NCBI GenBank assembly: GCA_021807675.1 | Contig: JAKBCR010000011.1 | Coordinates: forward strand, 1 to 44,967 | Origin: Pseudomonadota bacterium | Lineage (GTDB): Bacteria; Pseudomonadota; Gammaproteobacteria; Steroidobacterales; Steroidobacteraceae | Direction of reading: 5' to 3' | DNA length: 44,967 nucleotides | Notes under the pieces: generated by a model | The model's input: only the letters and a program-made list of their open reading frames with translations | Told to the model about the DNA's origin: nothing | Database searches by the model: none | Program-made: the position numbers and the translations under genes | In this document: positions 20,500 through 43,690 of the stretch, one piece after another | Position numbering within the stretch: the stretch's first letter is position 1 | Layout: every line of letters begins with the position of its first letter

Positions 20500-20544
20500 A
20501 CGCCAAGAAGCGCTGGATCCGGGCTCCTGCGCGAACGAAACGCT

Positions 20545-20578
20545 GCTTTGGGCAAAAAGCGCGGTTTTTGCCCAAAGC
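20545..20578. terminator. Perfect 14-base-pair hairpin (possible bidirectional terminator)
   Basis: GCTTTGGGCAAAAA (20545-20558) and TTTTTGCCCAAAGC (20565-20578) pair perfectly around a six-base loop GCGCGG. The A and T runs lie inside the stem rather than after it, so it is not a textbook intrinsic terminator. It begins 45 bases after the HyuB stop. Confidence 0.5.
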
Positions 20579-20590
20579 TCGCTCGGCGGA

Positions 20591-20607
20591 GCGAAGCAGT
20601 GCTTCGC
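20591..20607. repeat. Small perfect hairpin
   Basis: GCGAAGCA and TGCTTCGC flank a single G, 12 bases after the larger hairpin. A further short one, GAGGC-ACC-GCCTC, follows at 20610-20622. Clustering of three stems suggests one structured RNA or a REP-like element. Confidence 0.45.
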
Positions 20608-20739
20608 GGGAGGCACCGCCTCGCCCTGCGGCGGCGGGGCACATCCTGTGCCTGGGGTGGCGCTCGCGCGGCTTCATGATATCGGGGTCGACATCGGTCG
20701 ATGGGCAACTATTAGGTACGGACAAAATCGCGCCTTTTT

Positions 20740-20767
20740 TTGTCTTTGCCTCGATACGTATTATGAT
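20740..20767 (+). promoter_or_regulatory. Candidate promoter with ATACGTAT operator, upstream of RO2
   Basis: TTGTCT (20740-20745) and TATGAT (20762-20767) are 16 bases apart, and the spacer holds the palindrome ATACGTAT (20754-20761). The same CGATACGTAT string lies in a matching promoter-like context before the MDR gene (28077-28104), at nearly the same distance from the start codon (about 110 bases). A regulator bound in the spacer would block polymerase. Confidence 0.4.
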
Positions 20768-20875
20768 TTTGCGGGGACAGGCGAACTCCTTTCTCAGGAC
20801 CATGGTGGCGACTGTCGCGATCCCGTCGACGGGCCACCCGGCCGTCCTTCGAAGCAAAGCCTTCCTGGAGAAGCC

Positions 20876-28224: not shown

Positions 28225-30276
28225 ATGAGTCACAAGTATTCGCGTGTGTTCAGTCCCATCAGGCTCGGGCCCGTGGACATCGAGAACCGGTTCTACTGCT
28301 CGCCGCATGCGATTCCGCTCAGCACGCCGCGCGGCGCGCCTACGGAGGATTTTATCGCCTACTGCGAGGCCCGCGTGCGAGGCGGGTGCGGGCTCATCAT
28401 GGTGAGCATGAGCGTTCCGCAGCGAGGCCGGGGTGTGCAGCCGACGCCCCACATTGAGGAGAACATCCCCGCGCTGCGCATGCTCGCGGACGCGGTACAC
28501 GGTGCCGGAGGAAAGTTCATCGTAGAGCTCTGGTATCACTGGGCGAGGCCGGGCAAGTGGGACCCGCTCAGCCCCCCGGCGCCTGCCCTCGGGCCTTCGG
28601 CGGCGCAGTTCAATCTCTTCGGCAGGAGATCGGCAACGCGCGAGATGAGCACCGCGGAAATCCGGCACATGATCGATGCGGTCCGGGACTCGACACGCAA
28701 CCTGCGCGAGGCCGGGTTTGACGGGGTCATGCTGCACGCCTCTCACGGCGCGATTCTCGAGCAGTTTCTCTCTCCCTACTTCAATCGGCGATCCGATGAG
28801 TATGGGGGCACTCTCGAGAACCGGATGCGGCTCCTGCGGGAGTCCCTGACCGCCGCCAGGGAGGCGTGCGGCGAGCGAATGGCCGTCGGAATGCGGCTCA
28901 ATTGCGATGAGCTGCTCACCGGAGGCTACGACACCCGTGAGTCATACCAGATCCTCAAGCGCACGGTGCAGGCCAGGCTCGTCGACTTCGTCGATCTCGA
29001 TGTTGCCGTCGAGCCCGATCAATTCCATATCGGCATGCCCTCGGTTTTCGTGCAGCCGCACGTATACCGGCCGTACGTCGAAGCTGTACGCGGGGCGGCT
29101 GGCAACATCCCTGTACTCAGCGTCCTCGGCCGATTGACTTCGGTCGCGGACGGCGAGGCGGCGCTCGCATCGGGGGTCTGCGATATGGTCGGGGCCGCGC
29201 GAGCGCTGTTGGCGGAGCCGAACCTGGTGAAGAACGCACGCGAGGGCAACGAAAGCCGCAGCCGCACGTGCATCGCCTGCAACTGGTGTATGGCTGCGGT
29301 GTATGACGGCGCACAGAGCTGCACCATCAACCCCTCGAGCTACCGCGAGCGCGGCTGGGGTACCGTCGTGCCCGCCCCTCGCAGGTCCAGGGTAGTCATC
29401 GTGGGGGCCGGCCCTGCCGGCCTCGAAGCCGCGCGCATATGCGCCCTGCGCGGACATGCGGTCGTGCTGTTCGAGTCGAGAAGCAGCACGGGGGGCGCTT
29501 TGACTCTTTGGGCACGCCTGCCGGGACGCGAGTTCTACCAAAAGGCGATCGACTGGTGGGATGCCGAAGTCCGGCACCTGGGCGTCGAGTTGCGCCTCGG
29601 CCGCGAGGCCACCGCGTCCCATATCCTCGACGAGCGACCCGATGCGGTCATCCTCGCCACAGGGGCGCGCTATTGCGCGAGCGGCCGTAGCAACCATCGC
29701 GATCTGGACATCCCGGGTTACGACAGCGATTTCGTTTACAGCCCCGAGGAGATCCTTCTGGATCAGGCTCGGCCCTCAGGCAAAGTGCTCGCTCTCGATG
29801 CAGAAGGACTGCACACCGGCGTGGGCATTGCGGAAATGCTGGCGCTCGCCGGAGCGGACGTGGAGTACCTGACGCCGTTTTTCGAGCCGGTGTCGCCGCG
29901 TGTCGTTGCGAGCCTGGAGCTTCCCCTCATCATGAAGAGGCTCCGCGCGGCGGGCGTGCGGATCTCTCCCTCCGCTTACATCAGCCGGATCGGCGATCAC
30001 GAGGTCACCGTGAGCGACGTCTATTCGCAGCGAGAGACGATCATCAGGGATGTCGATGCGGTCATCCTCTCCACGGGGCGCCTCGCGGTGAACCATCTCG
30101 AGAAAGAGCTCACCGGAAAGGTCGCGCAGCTTTTCGCCGTCGGCGACGCGCTCGCCCCGAGGATGTGGGCGTCCGCGAGCTACGAGGGACACAAATTCGC
30201 GCGCTACATCGGTGAGCTCGACGCGCCAAGATCGGTGGCGGACGTCTATTTTCGCCAGGACGATCCCGGCCTCTGA
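28225..30276 (+). CDS. 2,4-dienoyl-CoA reductase/trimethylamine dehydrogenase-like flavoprotein
   Basis: A 683-residue three-cofactor flavoprotein. Residues 1-350 are an Old Yellow Enzyme-type FMN barrel (VFSPIRLGPVDIENRF, then HASHGAILEQFLSPYFNRRSDEYGG). A [4Fe-4S] motif C-x2-C-x2-C-x10-C follows (CIACNWCMAAVYDGAQSC), with the spacing of the first three cysteines as in trimethylamine dehydrogenase. The C-terminal third binds ADP/FAD and NAD(P) (VVIVGAGPAGLEAARI). Such enzymes reduce conjugated dienoyl-CoA or enones, dehydroxylate bile-acid-type steroids (BaiCD/BaiH) or demethylate amines. ATG 28225 starts the OYE fold; earlier codons are unrelated. A SnoaL-like gene and a nitroreductase follow. 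Confidence 0.92.
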   Translation: MSHKYSRVFSPIRLGPVDIENRFYCSPHAIPLSTPRGAPTEDFIAYCEARVRGGCGLIMVSMSVPQRGRGVQPTPHIEENIPALRMLADAVHGAGGKFIVELWYHWARPGKWDPLSPPAPALGPSAAQFNLFGRRSATREMSTAEIRHMIDAVRDSTRNLREAGFDGVMLHASHGAILEQFLSPYFNRRSDEYGGTLENRMRLLRESLTAAREACGERMAVGMRLNCDELLTGGYDTRESYQILKRTVQARLVDFVDLDVAVEPDQFHIGMPSVFVQPHVYRPYVEAVRGAAGNIPVLSVLGRLTSVADGEAALASGVCDMVGAARALLAEPNLVKNAREGNESRSRTCIACNWCMAAVYDGAQSCTINPSSYRERGWGTVVPAPRRSRVVIVGAGPAGLEAARICALRGHAVVLFESRSSTGGALTLWARLPGREFYQKAIDWWDAEVRHLGVELRLGREATASHILDERPDAVILATGARYCASGRSNHRDLDIPGYDSDFVYSPEEILLDQARPSGKVLALDAEGLHTGVGIAEMLALAGADVEYLTPFFEPVSPRVVASLELPLIMKRLRAAGVRISPSAYISRIGDHEVTVSDVYSQRETIIRDVDAVILSTGRLAVNHLEKELTGKVAQLFAVGDALAPRMWASASYEGHKFARYIGELDAPRSVADVYFRQDDPGL

Positions 30277-30347
30277 TCGTCTGACTGGAGTGCCTTGTGC
30301 CTGCGGCGATCATCTGATATCCGAAGATATTGAGGAGTGCTTGTGCC

Positions 30348-30857
30348 ATGAGCGACTTTGCGAGTGTCGAAGCGGCCATCCGGCAGCTGCATGCGCGGTA
30401 TGCCGATGCCGTCTGGCGCAGGGATCTGCAATCCTTCGGGGACTGCTTCATCGAGGAGTGCGAATGGCGGATCGGCGGGGCCGTGATCCGTGGCCGCACG
30501 GCGATCGTCGAGCACATGCGCGGCGTGTTCCCGAAGTTCCGCAGGATCCTCGTCACCTTTCACACACCGATCCTGACGGTGGCGGGCGCAACCGCGAGCG
30601 GCAGAACGTTTCTCACCGAGCAGAGCGTCCTGGCGGACGGCCGCGGCTTTGCACCGATCGGCACGTACTTCGAGCGCTTCGTGCAAGACGGAGACTGTTG
30701 GCGATTCGCGTGGCGTCTCTTCCAGACACAGTATGCCGGCGCGCCGGATCTGTCAGGCACTTTCTTCGACAACCCGGATTTCGGGCCCCCGCCTGCAATG
30801 CCACCGCTCGATGCCCCGACCTTCAACTACACCGGGCTGCACGCCGCCAATGATTAG
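30348..30857 (+). CDS. SnoaL/NTF2-like protein
   Basis: A 169-residue SnoaL-like protein: ASVEAAIRQLHARYADAVWRR is the leading helix, followed by DCFIEECEWRIGGAVIRGR and the VQDGDCWRFAWRLFQTQYAG sheet, with a proline-rich tail of about 30 residues. ATG 30348 has a GAGGAG site; the frame from 30330 adds only six residues. It lies 71 bases after the enoate-reductase-like gene and 16 bases before the nitroreductase, so all three are probably one operon. Given the fold, it may hydrate, isomerise or epimerise the product of the flavoprotein. Confidence 0.83.
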   Translation: MSDFASVEAAIRQLHARYADAVWRRDLQSFGDCFIEECEWRIGGAVIRGRTAIVEHMRGVFPKFRRILVTFHTPILTVAGATASGRTFLTEQSVLADGRGFAPIGTYFERFVQDGDCWRFAWRLFQTQYAGAPDLSGTFFDNPDFGPPPAMPPLDAPTFNYTGLHAAND

Positions 30858-30873
30858 CTCGAGGCCGCCCCTC

Positions 30874-31548
30874 ATGAGCGTCAGCGAGGCGATCGCACGG
30901 CGACAGTCGGTGCGCGCATTCAAGCCGGATGCGGTTCCGCAAGCCACGATCCGTGAAATCCTCGATCTGGCCCGCCGCGCTCCATCCGGCGGCAATCTGC
31001 AGCCATGGCGGGTCTATGCGCTCGCCGGCGAGCCGCTGGCGCAATTCAGAGCTCTGATTGCCGAGAAGCTCGTACGCGGTGTCAAAGAGAGCCCCGAGTA
31101 CGATATCTACCCGCCAAACCTGTGGGAGCCATTGCGCACGCGTCGGCGGGAGGCCGGGGCTCTGCGATACACGGCACTGGGAGTCACGGACAAGGACAAG
31201 GAGGGACTCGAGGCCCTCACACGCTGGAACTATGAGTTCTTCGGCGCGCCGGTGGGCCTCTTTTTCTGCATAGACAGGCGCTGCGGTCCGCCGCAGTGGT
31301 CCGACGTCGGGATGTACATGATGTCGGTGATGCTGCTCGCGACCGAGCGCCGCCTCGACACCTGTCCCCAGGAAAGCTGGGCGAGCTGGCCGAGAGCCGT
31401 GGCGCAGTTCCTCGATCTTCCCGCGCAGCTCATGCTGTTCGCCGGGATGGCGCTCGGCTACCGCGACGACTCTCATTCCCTGAATCAATTCCGCACGCCC
31501 CGCGCCGGGCTCGAGGAATTCGCCGAGCTGAGAGGCGGCGCCGACTAA
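30874..31548 (+). CDS. Nitroreductase-family flavoprotein
   Basis: A 224-residue FMN-dependent nitroreductase-family protein. VSEAIARRQSVRAFKPDAVP at the N-terminus holds the FMN-phosphate-binding Arg-Arg-x-Ser-x-Arg, and RRAPSGGNLQPWRVYAL with DVGMYMMSVMLLATERRLDTCPQ are typical of the oxygen-insensitive NfsB/Frm2-like group. I chose ATG 30874 because a GAGG site precedes it; an ATG at 30850 overlapping the SnoaL stop is possible. Family members reduce nitroaromatics or quinones, or act as enone or ene reductases; which one is unknown. It overlaps the convergent GntR gene by four bases at the stops. Confidence 0.9.
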   Translation: MSVSEAIARRQSVRAFKPDAVPQATIREILDLARRAPSGGNLQPWRVYALAGEPLAQFRALIAEKLVRGVKESPEYDIYPPNLWEPLRTRRREAGALRYTALGVTDKDKEGLEALTRWNYEFFGAPVGLFFCIDRRCGPPQWSDVGMYMMSVMLLATERRLDTCPQESWASWPRAVAQFLDLPAQLMLFAGMALGYRDDSHSLNQFRTPRAGLEEFAELRGGAD

Positions 31549-32357
31549 CCCACTGCCCGCCGCAACGTGGTCGAGTAACGGTACCGATACGACGGATGAG
31601 TGCTGAGGGTGACCTGCGCGGTCAGGCCGTTGGAGGTCTTGTACGTGCGGCGGACCTCGAGTCCCGCCGTGCCGGCCTGGACTCTCAGCGGGCGCGCAAT
31701 CGCCGATGAGATGAGCGTCGCGCCGATTTCCTGGTGAACCTCCACTATCTTGTGTCCGAAGAGATTCTCGATCAGCGGGAATAACGGCCCGGTGTGCTGC
31801 GGCAGAACTCGGCGCACTGCCGCGTATTCCCGGTGGACGAAATACTCGGCCCAGCAGGCTGGGTGCTCGAGACCCTCCGCATACCCGAAACCGCGAGCCC
31901 AGAGCCACTCCTCGCCGCTCAGGAGCCCTGTCCGGCTCGCAAGCGCCCCATCGATGACCACCATCTCGAGCGACTCGATGGCGAAGCGCTGGCCGCTCGA
32001 CCAGCTGATGAGATCGTTGATGGACACGATGTCCCGGGAGCAAGAGCTCGCCGCGGGTCTCGGGACGACCGTGGTACCCGCCCGAGGGCGAGAGGCGACG
32101 AGGTTGTCCGCACGAAGCCGCTTCAACGCCTCCCTCACGGTGAACCGGCTGACGGAAAAGCGCTCACACAGCTCATCTTCGGTGGGTAGTCTGGAGCCCG
32201 CCGGGTACACCCCGTCCGCGATCTCCTTCTTCAGAATGCGCTCAATCTGCACGTACAGGTGATCGTCGGATTTGCTGCTGACAGTGCAACGGAGGGGCCC
32301 CGATTTCCGAATCGGCTCTTCCGAGCGGAACGCCGTTTCGCTGCTCGACTGCACCAT
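31545..32357 (-). CDS. GntR-family (HutC/UTRA type) transcriptional regulator
   Basis: A 270-residue regulator. The N-terminal winged helix-turn-helix is clear (LYVQIERILKKEIADGVYPAGSR, PTEDELCERFSVSRFTVREAL), and the C-terminal half has the chorismate-lyase-like UTRA fold of the HutC subgroup, which binds a small effector. ATG 32357 gives about 30 residues before the HTH, normal for the group; an ATG at 32468 would add 37 residues of no known fold. It diverges from the IclR gene and converges with the nitroreductase gene, with the two stop codons overlapping (31545-31548). It may sense a pathway intermediate and control neighbouring operons. Confidence 0.9.
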   Translation of the reverse strand: MVQSSSETAFRSEEPIRKSGPLRCTVSSKSDDHLYVQIERILKKEIADGVYPAGSRLPTEDELCERFSVSRFTVREALKRLRADNLVASRPRAGTTVVPRPAASSCSRDIVSINDLISWSSGQRFAIESLEMVVIDGALASRTGLLSGEEWLWARGFGYAEGLEHPACWAEYFVHREYAAVRRVLPQHTGPLFPLIENLFGHKIVEVHQEIGATLISSAIARPLRVQAGTAGLEVRRTYKTSNGLTAQVTLSTHPSYRYRYSTTLRRAVG

Positions 32358-32634
32358 GATTTCGCCGTTTCGAGATGACACCGTCGACCTGCTATCCGGG
32401 TTAGTGGCCAAGAAATCGGCAGCCCAGCCTGCCGCCTGGCCTCGCTGGACCGCCGCGCACATTGTCATTATAATTCTTTTTGAGGAACCAAGTTTCCGCT
32501 TTCAGAATTTTCTGCTCGATTTTTCCGGTCTCAGCGGGCCAAAAATGGCCTCAGGACTGCGATTACTTATATAAGACATTGATAATATTGTATTTAAAGT
32601 CCATGATGGCGCGTTGAGTAAAATATCCGTATAT
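32358..32634. promoter_or_regulatory. AT-rich divergent region between GntR and IclR genes
   Basis: The most AT-rich stretch of the window (32460-32635), as expected for two divergent regulator promoters. It holds an imperfect palindrome GGAACCAAGTTTCC (32484-32497) that resembles IclR-family operators (GGAA...TTCC), and TATCCGTAT (32624-32632) next to the IclR start, similar to the ATACGTAT motif elsewhere. Individual -35/-10 boxes are ambiguous. Confidence 0.45.
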
Positions 32635-33486
32635 ATGAATAGAAAATCGGATCTGGCGCTGGAAAGAGAGGAAGTCCCGGGTCTCGCTGACGGCACCTCG
32701 AATCCCGTTACGCCGCTGAGGACCAGCCGAGTGTCCGATGCCACGAGCGCGGAGCGCGTTCTCGCCATACTCGAGATGTTCGAGCGAGAGCGGCGTCCGC
32801 TGTCCCTCAAAGAGCTGTCCGAGTATTGTCAGATTCCCGGAAGCACTTGCCATATGTTGGTGCAGACGCTCCTCAAGCGGGCCTACCTTTACCATACGGG
32901 ACGGCGCAAGGACCTGTACCCGACGCGAAAGCTTTATGACATCGGCGCGTCCGTCGTCGCTAATGACTCCATCCTTCAAAAGATGGAGCCCACCATGCAG
33001 GAGCTTCGCGACTCGACGCGAGAGACGGTGATTCTCGGGAAGAGACACAAGGACAGCATCATCTACCTCGAAGTCCTCGAAGGGCCGCAGACTGTCCGCT
33101 ACAGCGCGAGAGCGGGCGACAGCAAGCCACTGCACTCGACGTGCATCGGCAAGGCGATTCTTTCGGGAATGAGACCGGAAGACATCCGCCAATGGTTGAC
33201 CGAGCATCCTGCGGAGCGTGTCACCGAGAATACGATTACGACGTATGCGCGTCTCATGGACGATCTGCAGACGGGCAAGCGACTCGGGTATTTCACCACT
33301 CACGGCGAGAACGTTCCGGACGTCAGTGCCGTGTCCGTCCCTCTGGACATCAACACTGAATCGTTCGGCCTGGCAGTCGCCGGCCCGAGCCACCGCATCG
33401 AGGCGAGATTCGATGAGATCGTTCGATTACTCAAAGAGGCGCGGACGGAGCTCATCGATCAGGGAATCGCGCGAGCGCAGCACTAG
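32635..33486 (+). CDS. IclR-family transcriptional regulator
   Basis: A 283-residue IclR-type regulator. The winged HTH (ATSAERVLAILEMFERERRPLS, then LSEYCQIPGSTCHMLVQTL) is followed by the GAF-like effector domain (YSARAGDSKPLHSTCIGKAIL and DINTESFGLAVAGPSHRIEAR). ATG 32635 is used; a TTG at 32614 is possible and no ribosome site is obvious for either. It immediately precedes the crotonase-mutase-CoA-transferase-MeaB operon in the same direction (57 bases), so it is the best candidate to control that module, probably in response to an acid or CoA-linked intermediate (inference from family habits). Confidence 0.9.
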   Translation: MNRKSDLALEREEVPGLADGTSNPVTPLRTSRVSDATSAERVLAILEMFERERRPLSLKELSEYCQIPGSTCHMLVQTLLKRAYLYHTGRRKDLYPTRKLYDIGASVVANDSILQKMEPTMQELRDSTRETVILGKRHKDSIIYLEVLEGPQTVRYSARAGDSKPLHSTCIGKAILSGMRPEDIRQWLTEHPAERVTENTITTYARLMDDLQTGKRLGYFTTHGENVPDVSAVSVPLDINTESFGLAVAGPSHRIEARFDEIVRLLKEARTELIDQGIARAQH

Positions 33487-33543
33487 CCGCGCTCGTGTCG
33501 CCGCGGGCGCCGCCCTCCCTATCGCCGCACGGCCACAGGTCTC

Positions 33544-34329
33544 ATGACATTCAGATTCTCATCATCGAACGACGTGCGTCACACCCTCGTCAGTGGTGTG
33601 CTGCTCGTGACAATCGACCGTCCCGACAAGCGCAATGCGCTCTCACTTGGTGTGCTCGACAGCCTGCGCCACATCTTCACTGATGCGGCGGGCGATACCG
33701 CCATAAAGGTCGCAGTCATTCGAGGGGCTGGCGCGAAAGCCTTTGCCTCGGGCGGTGACCTCACCGAGCTGGCCGCCTATCGGGAGCGAGAGGACGCGGA
33801 AGCGCTTTCACGGCACGGCAAAGCCGCGCTCGATGCCATTCGGCTGTTCCCGGCTCCCGTCATCGCCCGCATGCAGGGAGTGGCTCTGGGGGGCGGGGCC
33901 GAGCTCGCGCTCGCATGCGACCTGCGAATGGCCTCCGCCTCATGCAGGCTCGGCTTCGTTCATGGCCGGCTATGTATCTCTCCTGCCTGGGGCGGGGGCA
34001 GAGATCTCGTTCGTATCGTCGGGCCCGCGAAGGCGCTGTACCTGATGGCCAGCGCAGCCGTACTCGATGCGTCAGCAGCACAAGCCATGGGCTTGGTCAA
34101 TCTGGTGGGTCCCGAGGACCCCTCCTTCGACACCTGGTTCGAGGAGCGCCTGGCCTTGTTTCGCGATCAGCCCGCCCAAGTACTGCGCGCCTACAAGGCG
34201 ATCACCGGATCGTCACGCGCCACCGATGCCGAACCGGCCGAGCGGGTGGAACGGGAGAGCTTCTGTTCGCTCTGGTGTCACGACGATCATTGGAACGCGC
34301 TGCGTAAGCTCGAGGGTGGGAGGCCGTGA
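33544..34329 (+). CDS. Crotonase-family protein resembling ethylmalonyl-CoA decarboxylase
   Basis: A 261-residue enoyl-CoA hydratase/isomerase superfamily member. The CoA and oxyanion-hole motifs are AFASGGDL (residues 67-73) and GVALGGGAEL (112-121). Glu120 matches the first hydratase glutamate, but the second is replaced by His140 in GFVHGRLCISPAWGG. This block, including FVH, SPAWGG and the LDASAA segment, resembles the ECHDC1 (ethylmalonyl/methylmalonyl-CoA decarboxylase) group as I recall it more than a true hydratase. That suits its place directly before the mutase, whose frame starts within its stop (GTGA overlap). It probably decarboxylates a malonyl-CoA-type ester; a hydratase role cannot be excluded. 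Confidence 0.85.
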   Translation: MTFRFSSSNDVRHTLVSGVLLVTIDRPDKRNALSLGVLDSLRHIFTDAAGDTAIKVAVIRGAGAKAFASGGDLTELAAYREREDAEALSRHGKAALDAIRLFPAPVIARMQGVALGGGAELALACDLRMASASCRLGFVHGRLCISPAWGGGRDLVRIVGPAKALYLMASAAVLDASAAQAMGLVNLVGPEDPSFDTWFEERLALFRDQPAQVLRAYKAITGSSRATDAEPAERVERESFCSLWCHDDHWNALRKLEGGRP

Positions 34330-35945
34330 GCGCGCGAGACGGAGGCGGCGAGAGGATCGATCCCCGGCAGCCACCTTCCCCGAGACCCGAGACCTCCTCG
34401 GGCATCCCGCTGCCCGAGTTCCTCGCTCGCGAGGACGGCGAGATTCCCGGCGAGTATCCCTTCACCCGCGGGATCTTCAAAAGCGGCTATCGCGGCCGCC
34501 TGTGGACTTTCCGGCAATACTCAGGTTTCGGAAGCGCCGAGGAAACCAACGAGCGCTACAAGTTTCTCCTCTCGAGTGGCTCGACCGGCCTCTCCGTCGC
34601 ACTCGATCTGCCTACCCAGTGCGGCTACGATCCAGACGACCCGATGGCGCGCGGCGAGGTGGGCAAGGTCGGCGTGTCGATGTTCAGCCTCGCGGAGGCT
34701 GAGACCGTTTTCGCCGGCATCGATCTGTCGCGGATCTCGACCTCTTTCACCATCAACGGCACCGCCGCCATTCTCTACGCGATGTACGTGGCGCTTTCGG
34801 ACAAGACCGGGGTGCCGCGCTCGGCCCTCACCGGAACGATCCAGAACGACATCCTCAAGGAGTATGTCGCCCGGGGAACGTGGATCTTTCCGGTGCGGCC
34901 GTCGATGCGGCTGATCGCGGATACGATCCTCTTCTCGAACGAGCATACTCCCCGGTTCAATCCGATCAGCATCGCCGGAGCGCATGTGCGTGACGCCGGC
35001 GCGACGGCCGTGGAGGAGATGGGCTATACACTGGCCAACGGCCTCGCGTACGTCGAGGAGTTGCTGCGGCGCGGTGGCGATGCGAACAGCTTCGCCAAGC
35101 GGCTCAGCTTCTTCTTCTACGTGCACATGGATTTTTTCGAGGAAGTGGCGAAATTCCGCGCGGGCCGGAGACTCTGGGCAAAGCTGCTCAAGGAGCGCTA
35201 CGGGATCACCGATCCGAAGGCGCTGATGTTCCGTTTCGGCGTCGTCTGTGGCGGCTCCTCGCTCACCGGCATGCAGCCCTACAACAACATCTCCCGCGTG
35301 GCGATCGAGACCATGGCGGCCGTGCTCGGCGGCGCGCAATCGATCTTCACGTGCGCCTATGACGAGGCGTTCCAGATTCCCACCGAGTTCAGCACCGAGC
35401 TGGCGCTGCGCACCCAGCAGATCATCGCCTACGAGTCCGGCATAGCGAAGACGGTCGATCCGCTGGGCGGGAGCGAGTTCGTGGAATGGCTCACCGACCG
35501 GATGGAGGGAGAAATCGCCACCATCCTCCGGGAGCTCGAAGATTACGGAGGTGTCGAGAAAGCCATCGAGGACGGATATCTGCAGATGCGAATCGCCGAG
35601 CGGGCGCTCGAGCGCAAGCAGAAGAAGGACCGCGGGGAAACCGTGGTGGTCGGCGAGAACTACTTCGGGGCCGCGGGCGCGGCGGCGGTCGAGTACGGCG
35701 AGGTGTTCAAGCCGGATCCGGCCTCCGAGCATCGGATCCGCTCGCGACTCGAGGACCTGCGCCGGCAGCGCAATGCCGCCAACGTCGCCCGGACCCTGGA
35801 CGCGCTGGAACGGGCCGCTCGCACGTCCGATACCAATGTGATGCCCTACCTCGTCGATTGCTGTCACGCGTATGCGACCCTGGGCGAGATGGTGGCTCGG
35901 CTCAAGGCGTGCTGGGGCGAGTTTTCCGAGCCCATCAGACTGTGA
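34326..35945 (+). CDS. B12-dependent acyl-CoA mutase, large (catalytic) subunit
   Basis: A 539-residue catalytic barrel of the methylmalonyl-CoA mutase (MCM) family without the cobalamin-binding domain, which the next gene encodes. The substrate-selecting pair matches MCM: Tyr65 in RQYSGF and Arg183 in YVARGTW, where isobutyryl-CoA mutase has Phe/Gln. In contrast, the conserved active-site His of the RxHxQT segment (His244 of the P. shermanii enzyme) is Gly305 ([12 protein letters not shown]), and the near-invariant LHTN is IFTC (340-343). So the fold and radical chemistry are expected, but the substrate pocket is altered. The GTG start at 34326 overlaps the crotonase stop by four bases. It may act on a substituted succinyl- or malonyl-CoA rather than methylmalonyl-CoA. 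Confidence 0.92.
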
Positions 35946-35956
35946 GAGCGACTCCA

Positions 35957-36355
35957 ATGGAAACTCTGCGCGGCAAGCGAATCGTGATCGCCAAGCCGGG
36001 ACTCGACGGACATGACGCCGGCGCGAAGATCATCGCCCTGACACTGCGGGACGCTGGCGCCGAAGTCATCTACACCGGCCTGCGGAAGACTCCCGAATAC
36101 ATCGCCCGGGTGGCCGTCGAGGAGGACGCGGATGCGCTCGGTCTCAGCATTCTGTCCGGCAGCCACATCGAGCTCGTGTCCGCCACCATCGAGAGCCTGC
36201 GCCGGCTCGCCGCGGAGGACATCAAGGTGTTCGTCGGCGGAACCATCCCCACCCCGGACCATGAGACATTGAAGGGATTCGGGGTGGCGGCCATCTACGG
36301 CGCGCAGATGCGGCTCGAGGATGTGGTGGCATCGCTCGCGGACCACTTGAGATGA
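35957..36355 (+). CDS. B12-dependent acyl-CoA mutase, small (cobalamin-binding) subunit
   Basis: A 132-residue cobalamin-binding domain with the full signature: DGHDAG (residues 17-22, D-x-H-x2-G), where His19 is the lower axial cobalt ligand, LSILSG (S-x-L, around Ser64) and FVGGTIP (Gly94-Gly95). The length and separate coding match the small subunits of isobutyryl- and 2-hydroxyisobutyryl-CoA mutases. It follows the large subunit by 11 bases and overlaps the CoA-transferase start by four bases (ATGA). The two subunits must assemble to give a functional adenosylcobalamin enzyme; MeaB, encoded further on, would guard it. Confidence 0.94.
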   Translation: METLRGKRIVIAKPGLDGHDAGAKIIALTLRDAGAEVIYTGLRKTPEYIARVAVEEDADALGLSILSGSHIELVSATIESLRRLAAEDIKVFVGGTIPTPDHETLKGFGVAAIYGAQMRLEDVVASLADHLR

Positions 36356-37488
36356 CGGTCGGCGGACCGCTTTCCGGCATTCGAGTCATTGAGGTTTGCC
36401 ACATGTTGGCCGGACCTTACTGCGGAATGCTGCTGGCCGATCTCGGCGCGGAGGTGATCAAGGTGGAGACCGGCAGCGGGGACATCGCCCGCTCGACGGG
36501 CCACCACACCGTGGACGGCCACAACGTTTACTTCGCGAGCCTCAACCGCAACAAGCGCAGCGTCCTCCTGGATCTGACCGATGCCGCATCGCACAGCCAA
36601 TTCGAGGCCTTGGCAGCAACCTCCGACGCGCTCATCACCAATCTCAGGCCCGGAGCGATCCGCAAGCTCGGCCTCACCTATGATCAGCTTCGCCGGATCA
36701 ATCCGGATCTGGTCTGCGTCGCCCTGACGGGGTTCGGGCTCAATGGCCCTTACAGCGACTTCCCGGCCTACGACTACATCATCCAGGCGATGACGGGCGT
36801 GATGATGCTGACCGGAGATCCCGACGGGCCGCCGGTCAGAGCGGGCTATTCGGTCGTGGACAACAGCGGCGGCATGATGGCGGCGATCGGGCTGCTCGCG
36901 CAACTGGTGGGAAGGAAGGGCGGCCAGGTGGACATCGCCCTCTACGACACCCTTCTGTCCCAGCTCAATTATCTGGCCGGCGCATACTTGAATGCCGGCG
37001 AGGTGCCGCGCCGCCACCCGAATGGCGCCCATCCAATCTTCGTGCCGGCCCAGATCTTCCGGACCGGCAATGGTCACGTCGCGCTCTTCATCACCCATGA
37101 CCGCTTCTGGCAGACATTCGCCGGTGCAGTGGACAGGCCCGATTGGCTGCGCGATGCACGGTTCGCGACGATGGCCGCCCGCGGCGAGCATCGCGAGGTC
37201 GTGATCGCCTCGATTCAAGCGCAGCTGCTGCGCCGCGGATCCGGCGAATGGGTGGCCTTGCTGCAGCCGCTCGGCATCGTGATCGCCGAGATCCAGGGGC
37301 TTCAGGACGCACTGGCGAGCGCGCATGCCGCCGCCCGCGAGATGGTCATCTCGATCGAGACCTCCGGCGGTCAGTTGAGGCTCGTGGCAAATCCGATCAA
37401 GGTGGGCGGCTTCCAGGAGACTTACCGCGCGCCACCCCGACTCGGAGAGGACGCAGCCCTTGTCGACAGACCGCATCGTGGCCGCTGA
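36352..37488 (+). CDS. Class III CoA-transferase (CaiB/BaiF family)
   Basis: A 378-residue family III CoA-transferase. The N-terminal GIRVIEVCHMLAGPYCGMLLADLGAEVIKVE is characteristic, and the catalytic Asp170 lies in YSVVDNSGGMMAA at the same position as Asp169 of formyl-CoA transferase. The family moves CoA from a donor such as succinyl-CoA onto a carboxylic acid through an aspartyl-CoA thioester. It starts within the stop of the mutase small subunit and overlaps the MeaB gene by 29 bases. It likely loads the acid substrate of the mutase with CoA. Members act on formate/oxalate, carnitine, bile acids, benzylsuccinate and itaconate-like acids. Confidence 0.92.
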   Translation: MTVGGPLSGIRVIEVCHMLAGPYCGMLLADLGAEVIKVETGSGDIARSTGHHTVDGHNVYFASLNRNKRSVLLDLTDAASHSQFEALAATSDALITNLRPGAIRKLGLTYDQLRRINPDLVCVALTGFGLNGPYSDFPAYDYIIQAMTGVMMLTGDPDGPPVRAGYSVVDNSGGMMAAIGLLAQLVGRKGGQVDIALYDTLLSQLNYLAGAYLNAGEVPRRHPNGAHPIFVPAQIFRTGNGHVALFITHDRFWQTFAGAVDRPDWLRDARFATMAARGEHREVVIASIQAQLLRRGSGEWVALLQPLGIVIAEIQGLQDALASAHAAAREMVISIETSGGQLRLVANPIKVGGFQETYRAPPRLGEDAALVDRPHRGR

Positions 37489-38377
37489 AGACCTGCCATG
37501 GCGGCGCAAGCTCGCACGTGAGCTGACCCTGCGTGCGCGGGCGAGCGTGCGAGAGATCCTATGCGCGCCGATAGCCTTTGGCGGCAAGGCAAGGCGCATC
37601 GGCATCACCGGTCCTCCCGGCGCTGGCAAAAGCAGTCTCATTGCGATGCTCGCACGACACTGGGAGCCCACGGGCCGAAAGCTCGGCGTCGTCGCAATCG
37701 ACCCGACGAGCCCACTATCGGGCGGAGCGCTGCTGGGTGACCGGATCCGGATGGACGAAGTCGCCCGCAATCCCAACCTCTTCATCCGCTCGCTGTCGAG
37801 CGGCGCGGCCCACGACGGCCTGTGTCCGAATCTCCTTGCGGTGCTCGACGCGTTCGAGGGAGCGCAGTTCGAAGATCTCATACTCGAGACAGTCGGTGTC
37901 GGGCAGGTCAACTACGACGCCCGGGTCCTGGTCGACACGCTCGTGCTGGTCCTCGTCCCGGAATCCGGCGATACGGTTCAGGCCATGAAGGCGGGGATCC
38001 TCGAGACCGCGGACATTTACGTCGTCAACAAGGCCGATCTTCCGGCTTCAGGCAAGCTGGCGGCGGAGCTGCGGTCGATTGCGGCATGGCGCGGGAAGAG
38101 CCGCCGGTGGACCCCTCCTGTCATCCTCACCTCCGCCCTCGAGGGGCGGGGCGCGTACGAGCTGGCGGCGGCCATCGAAGCCCATCGCCATGCGGTTCTC
38201 GATGAGGACCGAATGCGCGCCTTGGCCGCAGCCCGTCGGGAATACCACATCCGCTCGCTCATCACGCGCAGGATCGGGGAGCTCCTGGCGAGCGGCGAGC
38301 ACGAATCCGCGGACCTTTCCGTGGCCGAGGGTCTGCGCGTCATCGTCGACAGGCTTCACCGCGATATGACCGGCTGA
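37460..38377 (+). CDS. meaB: MeaB/ArgK-type G3E GTPase
   Basis: A 305-residue P-loop GTPase of the MeaB type, the chaperone that gates cofactor loading of B12-dependent mutases and ejects damaged cobalamin. Walker A is GPPGAGKS (residues 51-58), DPTSPLSGGALLGDRIRM is the family signature, ETVGVGQ (switch region) and VVNKAD (guanine specificity) are clear. The TTG start at 37460 has an AGAGGACG site before it and lies inside the CoA-transferase gene. The stop is 22 bases inside the opposite-strand SnoaL gene, so the two units converge. Its presence strongly supports a functional mutase upstream. Symbol by family only. Confidence 0.92.
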   Translation: MSTDRIVAAEDLPWRRKLARELTLRARASVREILCAPIAFGGKARRIGITGPPGAGKSSLIAMLARHWEPTGRKLGVVAIDPTSPLSGGALLGDRIRMDEVARNPNLFIRSLSSGAAHDGLCPNLLAVLDAFEGAQFEDLILETVGVGQVNYDARVLVDTLVLVLVPESGDTVQAMKAGILETADIYVVNKADLPASGKLAAELRSIAAWRGKSRRWTPPVILTSALEGRGAYELAAAIEAHRHAVLDEDRMRALAAARREYHIRSLITRRIGELLASGEHESADLSVAEGLRVIVDRLHRDMTG

Positions 38378-38793
38378 GGAGCCTCCTCGGCAGCGTCCGA
38401 GATCAACACTGCCGCGAATCGCCGGTAGCGGATCTTCCATCCATCCGACTGACGCAGCAGCCGGTCGTGATACCACCCGCAGGCCCGGCGGATCTTGCGG
38501 TGGGAGGCTCCCGGCATCAGCAGCGCGTCGACATAACTTGTCGCCGTCGCCTCCTCTCCTTCGCCCGCGATCACGAGGTTGGTCATCCGATGCAGGGTCG
38601 GTCCCCAGCCCTCATGGCCCTTCTCCATGCGATCGACGAAGAGAGCCCGTCCGCGCCAGCGACCGAGCTCGCCATAATCCGCCTCCATGTCCTCGGTGAA
38701 GCATGAGGCGAAAAGCGGCCAATCTCGGCGATCGATCGCGTCGGCGTAGCGAAGGATCACCGCTGCTGTCTCACGCTCGTCATCGACGCTCAT
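38356..38793 (-). CDS. SnoaL/NTF2-like protein
   Basis: A 145-residue SnoaL-like protein (DDERETAAVILRYADAIDRRDWP, CFTEDMEADYGELGRWRGR, then LHRMTNLVIAGEGEEATATSY and RACGWYHDRLLRQSDGWKIRYRRF). ATG 38793 has an AGG site close by; upstream in-frame sequence lies antisense to the MFS gene and is unrelated. Its 3' end overlaps the MeaB gene by 22 bases. The neighbouring MFS gene diverges at a distance of 127 bases. It belongs to the group of SnoaL_4-type proteins that recurs in this island. Function unproven. Confidence 0.83.
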   Translation of the reverse strand: MSVDDERETAAVILRYADAIDRRDWPLFASCFTEDMEADYGELGRWRGRALFVDRMEKGHEGWGPTLHRMTNLVIAGEGEEATATSYVDALLMPGASHRKIRRACGWYHDRLLRQSDGWKIRYRRFAAVLISDAAEEAPQPVISR

Positions 38794-38920
38794 CACCTGC
38801 TGGGCTCCGGAGTCGGCTTGGCCGGGAGATTGCGCATAGGAGCAGTATGCCACGACCTCATGGCCGTTCCGAGCCTGCGCCAATGCTGACCGGAGCGAGC
38901 CGCTGGAGTATTCTCGTGCG

Positions 38921-40123
38921 ATGGTCGACAACGATGTGCGCTCGCTGGCGCGGGGGCGGCCGGCGCTGCTTTTCGCGACCCTCATGTCGGGCCTGATGTC
39001 CCAGGGCTTCACGTTTACCGCTTTCGTTGCCGCGTTGCCGCAGATGGCACGAGACCTCGGAAGCCACGGGGCTTTCATTGCGCAGATGACCATGGCGCTC
39101 GCCGCGCTCGGTCTGATGCTCGGCTCACTCGTCAGCGGCTGGATACTCGAGCGCGCCGGAACGCGCGTCGCGCTGATTGTCTCGACCGTCATCTTCGGGC
39201 TGGCGGGCGGGGGCGGCCTTGTCTTCCGCGAGCCATCGCTTCTGCTCGCCTCGCGCTTCGCAGTGGGCCTGGCTTCGGCCTGCATGGTAACCACCTGCCT
39301 CTGGGGGATCGGCGCAGAGTACGAGGGCAGCCGGCGGGCGCGAGCGCTCGGCGTCGCCTCGGCGCTCGCCAACCTCGTCTCCCTCGGCGGCACGCTGCTC
39401 GGAGGTGCGCTGGCGGCACTTGGCGGCTGGCCGCTTGCCTTCGTTCAGTTCCCGCTGTTCGGCGCCGCGGCGTGCCTGCTCGCTTCCGTCAGCCTGCGCC
39501 AGGTCAGGCCCGGCAGCCGAGCCCCGTCAATCGAGGGCGCTCAGCTGATCCTGCGACTCTTACCGTTCTATTTGCTGGCCGCCCTGCTCTTTGCCGTCAT
39601 GTTCATGGCGTCGACGCAGTTTGCCTTCCTCCTGCAGCTCGATGGCTTCGGCAGTCCCTCCACCCGCTCGCTTTTCATCGGCGCCATGACCCTGGTGGCT
39701 GCGCTGACGGCATTCTGCTATGGCCCTCTGCAGCAGCGGCTCTCGGCGACGGGCGCCTTCCTGCTCGGACTCATCGCCATGGGACTCGGACTCGCAACGC
39801 TCTCCTTCGGCGAGCGGCTGGCGTACGCGGCCATTGGAGCAATCCTCATGGGCCTCTATGTCGGCATCATCGGCCCCTACGTGTACCACTCGGTGACCGA
39901 GAGGACCGCCGAGGCCGCACGGGGTCGAGCCATCGGACTCCTCAACGCGTTCTGTTTTCTCGGGGGGTCTCTCAATCCGCCCGTTTTCCAGACGCTCGCC
40001 CGACTGATCGGGCTGCACAAGGTGTTCCTCACCGCGGCGCTCCTTATGGCATTGCTTGCTCTTGCTACCGCCCTGCGGGCGCGACGCCAAAGCGCGGCCG
40101 CGGGCTCGATGCCGACCGCTTGA
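38921..40123 (+). CDS. Major facilitator superfamily transporter
   Basis: A 400-residue MFS permease with about 12 hydrophobic helices; the first starts at ALLFATLMSGLMSQGFTFTAF and the inter-helix loop GWILERAGTRVALIV after helix 2 is the MFS A-motif-like stretch. There is a longer polar break between helices 6 and 7 (around RQVRPGSRAPSIEGAQ). It could import the pathway substrate, or export an intermediate, across the inner membrane. It diverges from a SnoaL gene and converges with Rieske oxygenase 3. The energy source would be the proton gradient. The substrate class cannot be inferred. Confidence 0.9.
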   Translation: MVDNDVRSLARGRPALLFATLMSGLMSQGFTFTAFVAALPQMARDLGSHGAFIAQMTMALAALGLMLGSLVSGWILERAGTRVALIVSTVIFGLAGGGGLVFREPSLLLASRFAVGLASACMVTTCLWGIGAEYEGSRRARALGVASALANLVSLGGTLLGGALAALGGWPLAFVQFPLFGAAACLLASVSLRQVRPGSRAPSIEGAQLILRLLPFYLLAALLFAVMFMASTQFAFLLQLDGFGSPSTRSLFIGAMTLVAALTAFCYGPLQQRLSATGAFLLGLIAMGLGLATLSFGERLAYAAIGAILMGLYVGIIGPYVYHSVTERTAEAARGRAIGLLNAFCFLGGSLNPPVFQTLARLIGLHKVFLTAALLMALLALATALRARRQSAAAGSMPTA

Positions 40124-40165
40124 TGCCCGCGACCCGTCTCGCCTTCGCGCGCGGGAAGCCGTGTC

Positions 40166-41515
40166 CTACAGCGGGCTGACGCCTGCGACGCCCATGTACT
40201 TGGCGAGATTGCGCTGAAAATTGCTGACGGTGCGCTCCTGCTTCGGATTCGGCAGCGCACCCTGGAAGCCCCGCGATCTCATCCCGCGCTGAACCTCGCT
40301 CATGTTCGCGAAGTCCTGAACCAGCACCGAGCGCCACTTCTCGACGTCCGTCGGTTCCGCGTAGACCCACTCCGTCTTCGGCTCCTGCCCGGACGGAAAG
40401 CGCTCGAGAACATAGGCCTCGAAGATGCACCGATTGGGATCAGGGCCATGCGGGCGCGCCCGGTAGCAGAGGGCGAACGTCAAGCCAATCCCGATGCTGA
40501 GGTTCGGAAAGATATGACAGGAGTTGCCGCATTTTGCGAGATGCGCCGGACTGATGCTCGGCCAGATCACGCCGCGCGCCGCATCGTCGCGCCGTGCGGA
40601 TTCCAGCCAGTGCCGGGTCACTTCGCCCGCCGGCGTGCCCTGAGGAAGCTCCTCCGCAAGCCGGGCGGCCGCATTCACGATCGTCTCAGTCGTCGTCGCA
40701 TTCACCGTGCGATAGATCTCCTCCTGCATCCTGGCGATGGAGACACGGGGATCATCACCCCTGCCCGCGCGGAAATATGTCTTGCTCTCCTGCGTCTGCA
40801 GACTCCGGTTCCGCTCCTCGAAACCCTTGTGGCTGTGTAATCCGTCCGCCTCGCTCCAGGTGTAGAACTCGGCGTATTTCAGCAGCTGGGGATGAGTGCC
40901 CTCGACATGGTAAGCCTCGATGAAGGCCTCGATGGCGACCTTCCAGTTGCAGTCGAAATAGCACCACTGCCGCCAACGGTAGCGCATCTTGTCCATCTCG
41001 AAGGGATCGAGCATGCCGGCAAGCGGCTCGAGGTACTGCCGCAGGGGCACGCAATCGGGGTCCATGTTGACCCAAACCCAGCCGCCCCAGGTGTCGACCC
41101 GGACCGGCTGCAGTCTCAGGCGCTCGGACTGGAGCCTGCCGCCCCAGTCCTCCTTGTCCAGCACCCGGATGTTCTCCCCTGTCAGGTCGTACTGCCAGGC
41201 GTGGTAACGGCAATGAAAATGTGTCACATGGCCGCAGCCGTCGACCAGCCGACGGCCACGATGCGCGCAAACATTGTAGAAGGCGCGAATCTCTTCAGGC
41301 CCGCTGCGGACGATGAGAATGGTGTCGTCCATGATGTCATACGTGACGTAATCCCCGACTTCCGCGATCTCCTCAACCCGACACGCATGTTGCCATACCT
41401 TCGGCCAGAGCTTGTCGCCTTCGGCACGGGCGTACGCCTCGGAGACGAACGGCTCCGCGCCGTATGTGACCGGTTGAGACAGCGCTTCATCGAGACCGTC
41501 GGCCGATTGCGGCAT
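40166..41515 (-). CDS. Rieske non-heme iron oxygenase, alpha subunit (RO3)
   Basis: A 449-residue Rieske oxygenase alpha subunit, closely similar to RO1 along its whole length (WQHACRVEEI, FYNVCAHRGRRL, HCRYHAWQYDL, YHVEGTHPQ). Cluster ligands are Cys83, His85, Cys102 and His105; the iron ligands are His203 and His208, and Glu200 bridges. An AGGAG site lies before the ATG. It is transcribed after the AraC regulator gene with a 21-base gap, so its expression is probably tied to that regulator. No beta subunit or redox partner gene is nearby. RO1 and RO3 probably arose by duplication and act on related substrates. Confidence 0.95.
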   Translation of the reverse strand: MPQSADGLDEALSQPVTYGAEPFVSEAYARAEGDKLWPKVWQHACRVEEIAEVGDYVTYDIMDDTILIVRSGPEEIRAFYNVCAHRGRRLVDGCGHVTHFHCRYHAWQYDLTGENIRVLDKEDWGGRLQSERLRLQPVRVDTWGGWVWVNMDPDCVPLRQYLEPLAGMLDPFEMDKMRYRWRQWCYFDCNWKVAIEAFIEAYHVEGTHPQLLKYAEFYTWSEADGLHSHKGFEERNRSLQTQESKTYFRAGRGDDPRVSIARMQEEIYRTVNATTTETIVNAAARLAEELPQGTPAGEVTRHWLESARRDDAARGVIWPSISPAHLAKCGNSCHIFPNLSIGIGLTFALCYRARPHGPDPNRCIFEAYVLERFPSGQEPKTEWVYAEPTDVEKWRSVLVQDFANMSEVQRGMRSRGFQGALPNPKQERTVSNFQRNLAKYMGVAGVSPL

Positions 41516-42895: not shown

Positions 42896-43690
42896 TCAGG
42901 ACTTGGGCGGTCCCGCGCGCCGCAGACGGGCAACCACATCGTCCGGAACACGGCCGAAGAAATGACCGACGGTTCTCGGCTCGACTTCCGGCTTCATCCG
43001 CCAGTGCCGATCGAACTCCTCCCGCCTGTGAAACGGAAGCGGGCGCTCCTCGGCGAGGTGGCGCAACCGTCGCTCGTAGCGCTCGAGGATACCCGCGCGC
43101 GCGGCATCATCCACGTGTGTCACCGAATCGGCGATGAAGGGCTCGAGGATGTCGAAGCCGCAAAAGGCGAGCACGCCGTTTTGAACCGGCCAAAGATTGA
43201 CCTCCAGGAGCCCGTTGAGCCCGTCTGGCGCCATCATCTGCGGATAGGCCGACATGGTCGTGACAAGCATGGCGCGCTTGCCACAGAGGCCCCCGCGCTC
43301 GTACCACTTGCCCGCACCGAAGGCGAAGCCAGGCACGAACACCCGGTCGATCCATCCCTTCAATATCGCGGGAAGCGAGAACCAGTAAAGCGGGAATTGC
43401 AGGATCAGCAGGTCGCACCAGGAGACCTTGGCGATCTCGGCCGTGATATCGCTCGCGAGGCTCCCGGTCGCATACCCGTGGCGTTGCTCCGCGAAATAGT
43501 CGAGGCGATCCTCCTGCTCGCGGCTCTTGAAATCCGATGCCCGCGCGACCGGATCGAAGCTCATGGCGTAGAGATCGGAGATGCGCAGCTCATCGCCGAG
43601 CGACTCGAAGGTCCGCTTCGCCAGGCTCAACATCGCTCCATTGAAGGAGCGCGGCTCGGGATGCGCGTATACGATCAGAACTCTTGCCAT
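42896..43690 (-). CDS. NAD(P)H:quinone oxidoreductase (flavodoxin-like)
   Basis: A 264-residue flavodoxin-fold oxidoreductase of the NQO1/KefF-type family. RVLIVYAHPEPRSFNGAML at the N-terminus is the classical motif, followed by LLILQFPLYWFSLPAILKGWIDRVF and a catalytic-loop segment GKRAMLVTTMSAYP. Such enzymes reduce quinones with two electrons, protecting against or channelling quinoid intermediates of aromatic breakdown. ATG 43690 is preferred, since upstream in-frame sequence overlaps the carotenoid oxygenase gene without similarity. The start lies 16 bases inside the end of the upstream gene, so the two are coupled. Confidence 0.9.
   Translation of the reverse strand: MARVLIVYAHPEPRSFNGAMLSLAKRTFESLGDELRISDLYAMSFDPVARASDFKSREQEDRLDYFAEQRHGYATGSLASDITAEIAKVSWCDLLILQFPLYWFSLPAILKGWIDRVFVPGFAFGAGKWYERGGLCGKRAMLVTTMSAYPQMMAPDGLNGLLEVNLWPVQNGVLAFCGFDILEPFIADSVTHVDDAARAGILERYERRLRHLAEERPLPFHRREEFDRHWRMKPEVEPRTVGHFFGRVPDDVVARLRRAGPPKS

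Follow-up and report, generated by a model that had tools for sequence, protein, structure and literature searches.

A distinct, apparently undescribed subfamily of adenosylcobalamin-dependent acyl-CoA mutases in Pseudomonadota, with a proposed role in 2-substituted succinate catabolism

Introduction

The described adenosylcobalamin (AdoCbl)-dependent acyl-CoA mutases closest to the enzyme studied here are methylmalonyl-CoA mutase (MCM), ethylmalonyl-CoA mutase (Ecm, also annotated as MeaA), 2-hydroxyisobutyryl-CoA mutase (HCM) and IcmF, the fused form of isobutyryl-CoA mutase (ICM). An excerpt of PMC5512728 describes the sbm operon of E. coli (scpA-argK-scpB-scpC), which encodes a mutase, a G-protein of the MeaB/ArgK type, a crotonase-fold decarboxylase and a CoA-transferase. 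For MCM, the catalytic residues in the Catalytic Site Atlas are Tyr89, His244, Lys604, Asp608 and His610, as given in a portion of PMC3205055. MatB and ActD, for which a conversion of hexylmalonyl-CoA to 2-pentylsuccinyl-CoA has been proposed, with MatB working alongside a separate B12 protein, are treated in a section of PMC5719088. Here, we analyse a mutase gene carried by a 44,967-nucleotide stretch of DNA (the window), which spans positions 1 to 44,967 of contig JAKBCR010000011.1 in a draft assembly of a Pseudomonadota bacterium of the family Steroidobacteraceae (GCA_021807675.1). The gene encodes the large subunit of a mutase that belongs to a separate subfamily and lies in a compact operon (Table 1).

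Results

Identity of the mutase

The open reading frame (ORF) has a GTG start and encodes 539 amino acids. Its PF01642 score, against a cut-off of 22.1 bits, places the protein in the acyl-CoA mutase superfamily. NF006944, the NCBIfam equivalog model for MCM, gave 527.3 bits, below its cut-off of 876; since this model also spans the fused B12 domain, a genuine two-subunit MCM would fall short of it too. By sequence, the closest solved structure was 4r3u, the large subunit of HCM (479.6 bits), followed by MCMs. An AlphaFold model (mean predicted local distance difference test score, pLDDT, 73.9; predicted template modelling score, pTM, 0.77) adopted a TIM-barrel fold, and a Foldseek search with it was led by HCM and MCM (template modelling score TMq 0.83 and 0.81).

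Conserved and altered active-site residues

Relatives were sought by scanning one genome per species, and the best 80 of 447 matches were used for all counts over 80 rows. They are 67–79% identical to the window mutase and come mostly from Pseudomonadota. The conservation alignment held 81 rows, one of them gapped, leaving 80 readable; 36 of the 81 entered a structure alignment. Residues were numbered by counting along the Propionibacterium shermanii MCM chain 1REQ, as aligned with the window mutase.

In this register, Tyr65 (in RQYSGF) and Arg183 fall on the Tyr89/Arg207 pair of MCM, as the initial annotation had proposed, and His220 falls on the catalytic His244, the residue replaced in PDB entry 1E1C, whose title names an H244A mutant. 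The small subunits carry KxxxDGHxxG, the motif holding the MCM triad Lys604/Asp608/His610, in 80/80 rows. Because the listed MCM catalytic set is thus retained across both subunits, the mutase should be an active enzyme, a prediction from conserved residues. The Tyr, Gln and Arg of a carboxylate-type pocket are shared by the window clade, MCM rows and Ecm rows; the corresponding pocket has Ile or Val and then Gln in HCM rows, and Phe and Gln in IcmF rows.

Around this conserved core, several positions have changed. Counting along 1REQ gives R326-T327-H328-S329-Q330 at the R-x-H-x-Q-T motif, which the window clade replaces with RFGVVC, so that Gly305 lies opposite His328. Gly305 (codon GGC), Val307 and IFTC in place of LHTN are all encoded in the ORF, as first noted. 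What does not hold is the reading of Gly305 as the loss of the conserved catalytic His, the one that contacts the thioester and protects the radical: such a His is His244, which is kept in 80/80 relatives. A histidine hidden at position 305 by a register shift is ruled out, since no gaps occur in the alignments at that point and all 80 relatives fetched encode RFGVVCGGS. SIAGAH is likewise common to all 80.

The comparison rows comprised 10 MCM, 5 ICM/MCM-like, 3 HCM-type, 3 IcmF-type and 5 Ecm-type proteins. In this comparison, only the window clade replaces Tyr243 with Ala, Gln330 with Val, Thr331 with Cys and the His of LHTN with Phe; Ala219, Gly305, Val307, Cys308 and Phe341 occur in 0/10 MCM rows. 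The statement that other mutases keep the histidine lost at position 305 stands for HCM-type (3/3), IcmF-type (3/3) and ICM/MCM-like (5/5) rows, as it does for MCM (10/10), but fails for the Ecm-type, where 5/5 rows (L106 and L129–L132) carry Gly. Two of these are annotated 'protein meaA' (L129 and L130), the former lying about 1.7 kb from ccrA, which encodes crotonyl-CoA carboxylase/reductase (Ccr). Both this Gly and Ala219, which replaces the neighbour of the catalytic His, had been overlooked. The loss of the histidine at the His328 column is, hence, not what makes the subfamily new. At the level of aligned residues, the mutase pocket is shown to be built of smaller side chains than that of MCM. 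In MCM, positions 243, 328, 330 and 366 make ribose and corrin contacts.

More divergent PF01642 proteins were also observed. A mutase at locus L100 (contig 7), 45% identical to that of the window, has RMIAGGGGGGL for R-x-H-x-Q-T and MALC for LHTN and retains Tyr89, Gln197, Arg207 and Tyr243-His244. A far more altered branch contains L124:4914-6635, on plasmid pMSHV of Sphingobium herbicidovorans, and L102, from the family of the window organism; its Tyr89, Gln197, Arg207, Tyr243-His244 and His328-Gln330 columns have all changed. The Sphingobium gene is nevertheless accompanied by a B12 subunit and MeaB of its own, and EthD and cytochrome P450 genes lie next to it. On plasmid 3 of Paraburkholderia sp. 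PGU19, L125:4845-6509 encodes a mutase whose His244 column holds Asp; genes for two acyl-CoA dehydrogenases and a crotonase lie before it, and those for a B12 subunit and MeaB after it.

Phylogeny and distribution

For the phylogenies, 13 rows that were short, partial or redundant were omitted, and of long fused proteins only the last 560 residues were used; the second tree also left out four very divergent rows (L102, L117, L124 and L125). Family labels came from motif, length and tree position (MCM, L092–L098; IcmF, L112 and L120; HCM, L091 and L099; Ecm, L106, L131 and L132). In the tree of 48 rows, 19 subfamily members formed a single branch with 100/100 support and a stem of 0.95, as they had in an earlier quick tree. 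MCM, Ecm, HCM and IcmF each formed separate branches with 100/99 or 100/100 support, while the ICM/MCM-like rows formed no single group; the root was placed at the midpoint. The best tree places the window enzyme outside the Ecm clade; a joint clade of the two was not rejected (approximately unbiased test, p-AU 0.311), and both one and two origins of Gly at the His328 column are compatible with this value.

Proteins sampled outside the subfamily were at most 50% identical to the window mutase. Judged from its sequences, the mutase is a member of a real, widely conserved and distinct subfamily outside the families sampled, which agrees with the separate subfamily suggested by the initial annotation. 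In a sample of the phylum, only 4 of 398 genomes, counting that of the window, gave matches at E ≤ 1e-150, so the subfamily appears to be an accessory trait. Matches occurred in 428 plasmid records, 7 at 60–80% identity and 421 below 60%. A full-text literature search, beyond whose reach lay the main structural work on the specificity of IcmF and HCM, returned no published description, and the subfamily is apparently undescribed.

Comparison with described mutases

The Ecm/MeaA enzymes share with the window mutase Tyr89, Gln197, Arg207, His244, the Gly at the His328 column and the proposed substrate class. Unlike it, they keep Tyr243 and Gln330 (Ala and Val in the window), form their own clade at 37–40% identity and have GVQVN and LPAWNE where the window clade has GVVCG and FTCAYDE; they are also longer single chains (661 amino acids for the annotated meaA of L129), whereas the B12 subunit of the window is a protein of its own. 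A characterised family lacking the same histidine, the case that the initial annotation had set as its own refutation, thus exists in the Ecm-type, but the tree keeps the window enzyme outside it.

HcmAB of Methylibium PM1 (4r3u), the best PDB match, resembles the window system in its separate large and small subunits and MeaB-type chaperone. HCM rows, however, form a separate clade, in which Tyr89 is replaced by Ile or Val and Arg207 by Gln, while His328 and Gln330 remain. The partner of HCM is a CoA ligase, according to an excerpt of PMC7176365, whereas a crotonase and a class III CoA-transferase accompany the window mutase. With the E. coli sbm operon, the window shares the logic of mutase, G-protein, crotonase and CoA-transferase; in contrast, MCM rows are only 40–44% identical, the window transferase is of class III, and His328, Gln330, Tyr243 and Asn366 are replaced. 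IcmF belongs to the same superfamily, and one IcmF-like copy exists elsewhere in the window genome, but at 30–33% identity, with a fused architecture, Phe/Gln at Tyr89/Arg207 and His328 kept, it differs from the window mutase, in which the features of IcmF- or pivalyl-type enzymes were not found. The likeness to MatB/ActD is drawn from descriptions; those enzymes serve actinobacterial biosynthesis and are assigned to the HCM subclass in the same section of PMC5719088.

Operon and genome context

The operon comprises, in order, genes for a crotonase, the large subunit, the B12 subunit, a class III CoA-transferase and MeaB, which overlap or abut at 34326/34329, 35942/35945, 36352/36355 and 37460/37488. 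The small subunit starts at a GTG overlapping the mutase stop codon, with an alternative ATG at 35957.

Table 1. Genes of the locus and diagnostic codons of the mutase, in window coordinates
Feature	Coordinates	Strand	Evidence
IclR-family transcriptional regulator, probable operon regulator, start codon uncertain	32614..33486	+	PF01614 108.6 bits; PF09339 45.9 bits
Crotonase-fold enzyme, proposed substituted-malonyl-CoA decarboxylase	33544..34329	+	PF00378 129 bits
AdoCbl-dependent acyl-CoA mutase, large (substrate-binding) subunit	34326..35945	+	PF01642 623.2 bits; TIGR00641 626.3 bits, above cut-off
Tyr65 codon (RQYSGF), MCM Tyr89	34518..34520	+	Tyr in 80/80 readable rows
Arg183 codon (VARGTW), MCM Arg207	34872..34874	+	Arg in 80/80 readable rows
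Ala219 codon GCG, MCM Tyr243; subfamily mark	34980..34982	+	Ala in 80/80 readable rows
His220 codon CAT (SIAGAH), MCM His244, catalytic	34983..34985	+	His in 80/80 readable rows
Gly305 codon GGC, MCM His328	35238..35240	+	Gly in 80/80 readable rows; common to Ecm-type
Val307 codon GTC, MCM Gln330; subfamily mark	35244..35246	+	Val in 80/80 readable rows
Cys343 codon, MCM Asn366 (IFTC for LHTN)	35352..35354	+	Cys in 69/80 readable rows
B12-binding small subunit	35942..36355	+	TIGR00640 138 bits, above cut-off; PF02310 81.3 bits
Class III (CaiB/BaiF) CoA-transferase, proposed dicarboxylic-acid activator	36352..37488	+	PF02515 382.6 bits; best solved relative YfdE 4hl6
MeaB-type GTPase chaperone, start codon uncertain	37460..38377	+	PF03308 228.7 bits; TIGR00750 234.2 bits, slightly below cut-off 240.75
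Major facilitator superfamily (MFS) transporter, possible uptake gene, operon membership doubtful	38921..40123	+	PF07690 114.1 bits; homologue in 1/81 loci (window)

We surveyed 81 loci, those of the 80 relatives and the window. A small-subunit gene was present in 80, a crotonase gene immediately before the mutase in 72, MeaB in 66, and an IclR homologue, on either strand, in 48. A CoA-transferase was present in 66 loci, two of which (L070 and L083) had only a 28–29% identical homologue outside the operon. These counts are lower bounds, because many contigs end within the flanks. Recurrent transport genes encoded TctC (13 loci), a DctM-type permease of the tripartite ATP-independent periplasmic (TRAP) type (5 loci) and a TAXI-type receptor (5 loci). 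Plasmid copies in Sulfitobacter and Paraburkholderia had TRAP genes; the one in Diaphorobacter had TctC-type and branched-chain ATP-binding cassette (ABC) transporter genes, with an isopenicillin N synthase (IPNS)-type gene downstream, and that of Marinobacter had a cobalamin adenosyltransferase gene after the operon. Recurrent neighbours differ by lineage, and none points to one substrate. No Rfam family, the cobalamin riboswitch included, reached its gathering score in positions 30000-40200.

In the crotonase, aligned with the 3-hydroxypropionyl-CoA dehydratase 5zai, Glu120 stands at the Glu113 position and His140 at the Glu133 position. Enoyl-CoA hydratases use two catalytic glutamates. Among the 74 rows of the family, 72 were readable; position 120 is Glu in all of these, while position 140 is Gln in 63, His in 9 and Glu in none. 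Given this replacement of the second Glu in 72/72 rows, the enzyme is not a canonical two-Glu hydratase.

The draft genome (430 contigs, 97.31% complete) contains two PF01642 loci, the window mutase and the IcmF-like copy. Within it, methylmalonyl-CoA epimerase did not reach its cut-off (best score 37.9 against 114.95 bits), nor did Ccr, and no separate Ecm was found, while methylisocitrate lyase (prpB) scored above its cut-off with 428.2 bits. With this combination, no setting in the usual pathway of MCM or in the ethylmalonyl-CoA pathway is indicated. The window mutase is, thus, unlikely to be the MCM of this genome, an epimerase being absent above the cut-off and prpB present; the ethylmalonyl-CoA pathway is equally an unlikely setting, given the lack of a Ccr above the cut-off and of a separate Ecm.

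Elsewhere in the window, a gene of the carotenoid-oxygenase (RPE65) family, the genes of three Rieske oxygenases and that of a P450 lie at 43675-44925 (-), 40166-41515 (-), 14534-15886 (-), 20435-22258 (+) and 1164-2396 (-), which suggests that the region serves the catabolism of larger organic compounds. At 16365-20499 (+), genes for hydantoinase/oxoprolinase A and B lie side by side. In marine alphaproteobacterial loci (L008, L012, L018, L034, L055 and similar ones), luciferase-like and 2-oxoglutarate (2OG)-Fe(II) oxygenase genes precede the operon; downstream is a divergent group of genes for an IclR regulator, the N and C parts of a thiamine pyrophosphate (TPP) enzyme and a 3-hydroxyisobutyrate-dehydrogenase-like protein.

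Discussion

Proposed function

We propose, with about even confidence, that the mutase and its operon would serve to activate a 2-substituted succinate with CoA, rearrange it to a substituted malonyl-CoA and decarboxylate the product. The class III CoA-transferase would attach CoA to a succinate with one substituent, or perhaps two, at position 2. In the mutase, Tyr65, Gln173 and Arg183 would hold the free carboxylate and His220 the thioester, while the small residues Ala219, Gly305 and Val307 would make room for the branch; the Gly at the same column in Ecm may accommodate an extra methyl. The 5'-deoxyadenosyl radical would abstract the hydrogen next to the carboxylate and the CO-SCoA group would migrate, yielding a substituted malonyl-CoA, with the B12 subunit and MeaB assisting. 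The crotonase would then release CO2 and leave a plain acyl-CoA. The simplest candidate is methylsuccinate, which would pass through methylsuccinyl-CoA and ethylmalonyl-CoA to butyryl-CoA and CO2; a bulkier one is 2,2-dimethylsuccinate, through isopropylmalonyl-CoA to isovaleryl-CoA. The initial suggestion of a bulkier substituted succinyl- or malonyl-CoA ester is, therefore, retained as the most economical substrate class, still as a proposal.

This proposal draws on the MCM catalytic residues kept in both subunits, the carboxylate-type pocket of Tyr, Gln and Arg combined with Gly at the His328 column as in Ecm, a gene set matching the plan of E. coli sbm, the crotonase family without the second hydratase Glu, the nearby transporters of dicarboxylate type (TctC, DctM TRAP and TAXI) and a genome context pointing to neither of the two known pathways. 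The crotonase is read as a decarboxylase because it accompanies a mutase and a CoA-transferase, as in sbm, and because of a presumed likeness to ECHDC1 (FVH/FVQ...WGG). Precedents for the chemistry are the side reaction of MCM that converts ethylmalonyl-CoA to methylsuccinyl-CoA and the decarboxylation of ethyl- and methylmalonyl-CoA by ECHDC1, both reported in an excerpt of PMC8473548. Since a dehydrogenase-based methylsuccinate route with a CoA-transferase is described for Cupriavidus and Pseudomonas (a passage of PMC12290011), methylsuccinate is a real environmental substrate, and a mutase route for it would be dispensable.

Several observations weigh against this proposal. The substrate and activity of the mutase are proposed from sequence and gene context and are unproven. 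The structural model has pLDDT below 50 at residues 182-184, 311-320 and 343-354, around the active site, so the pocket argument relies on the alignment alone. The crotonase is only 25% identical to that of the E. coli sbm locus (55.5 bits). A profile of five crotonases from such operons matched PDB chains named as hydratases, isomerases and related enzymes, with no decarboxylase-named chain among the best 60 of 162 matches, and no NCBIfam model was above its cut-off for the crotonase among the best 25 matches. Fifteen of the 81 loci had no CoA-transferase match in their flanks; some are at contig ends, but several, among them L010, L015, L016, L022, L028, L030 and L032, look uncut, with MeaB following the small subunit and no transferase. 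Transporter types and other neighbours also vary among loci.

Alternative explanations

The sbm-type gene set, with Tyr89, Gln197, Arg207 and His244 all as in MCM, would also suit an operon for plain succinate, in which succinyl-CoA and methylmalonyl-CoA interconvert, the crotonase decarboxylates and the transferase recycles CoA, giving propionyl-CoA. We regard this as unlikely: the strictly kept Ala219, Gly305, Val307, Cys308 and Phe341, none of them seen in the MCM rows, would serve no purpose in the reaction of MCM, and the clade is separate with 100/100 support. Mutase equilibria are reversible and the class of the crotonase is unproven, so the flow might instead run from an activated substituted malonate to a substituted succinyl-CoA, with the crotonase serving as a lyase, a hydrolase or a cleaner of side products. 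If the crotonase is a decarboxylase, however, a malonyl-CoA decarboxylase alone would finish the malonate and the mutase step would be wasteful, and we consider this direction improbable. The branch could also be polar or aromatic (a hydroxy-, amino-, aryl- or ring-derived succinate) and made by nearby oxygenases, the crotonase removing or adding water or another group. The luciferase-like and 2OG-Fe(II)/IPNS-type genes upstream in the marine alphaproteobacterial loci, the downstream IPNS-type gene of Diaphorobacter and the Rieske, P450 and other oxygenases elsewhere in the window fit such a substrate, but most loci lack oxygenase neighbours and the pocket changes go to small, apolar residues, and we regard it as unlikely.

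Closer to home among known families, the Gly at the His328 column and the p-AU for a joint clade would be compatible with an Ecm that has lost its fused B12 domain. This is very unlikely in view of the low identity to the Ecm-type rows, the best tree, in which the two clades stand apart with 100/100 support each, the Tyr243 and Gln330 that Ecm rows keep and the window has lost, and the lack of a Ccr above the cut-off in the genome. A catalytically dead or regulatory homologue, as the change of several otherwise conserved pocket residues might suggest, is scarcely credible, because the mutase keeps its catalytic Tyr and His, the B12-binding triad is retained and the B12 subunit and MeaB adjoin the mutase in most loci.

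Significance

Carbon-skeleton mutases are few, and each added substrate class opens a route to degrade or to make branched acids. Pocket residues, conservation of the gene set and an independent resemblance to Ecm together reduce the candidate substrates to a short list. The sequence marks would let annotators stop naming these proteins methylmalonyl-CoA mutase, and a trap has been corrected: the His of R-x-H-x-Q-T is not the catalytic one, and Gly in its place is normal for Ecm-type enzymes. More tentatively, and against somewhat unfavourable odds, the operon may represent an undescribed B12-dependent catabolic route in Pseudomonadota, compact enough to fit one operon, in which the mutase would move a blocking branch or quaternary carbon and would be the first of a new substrate class whose adenosyl/substrate pocket has been emptied.

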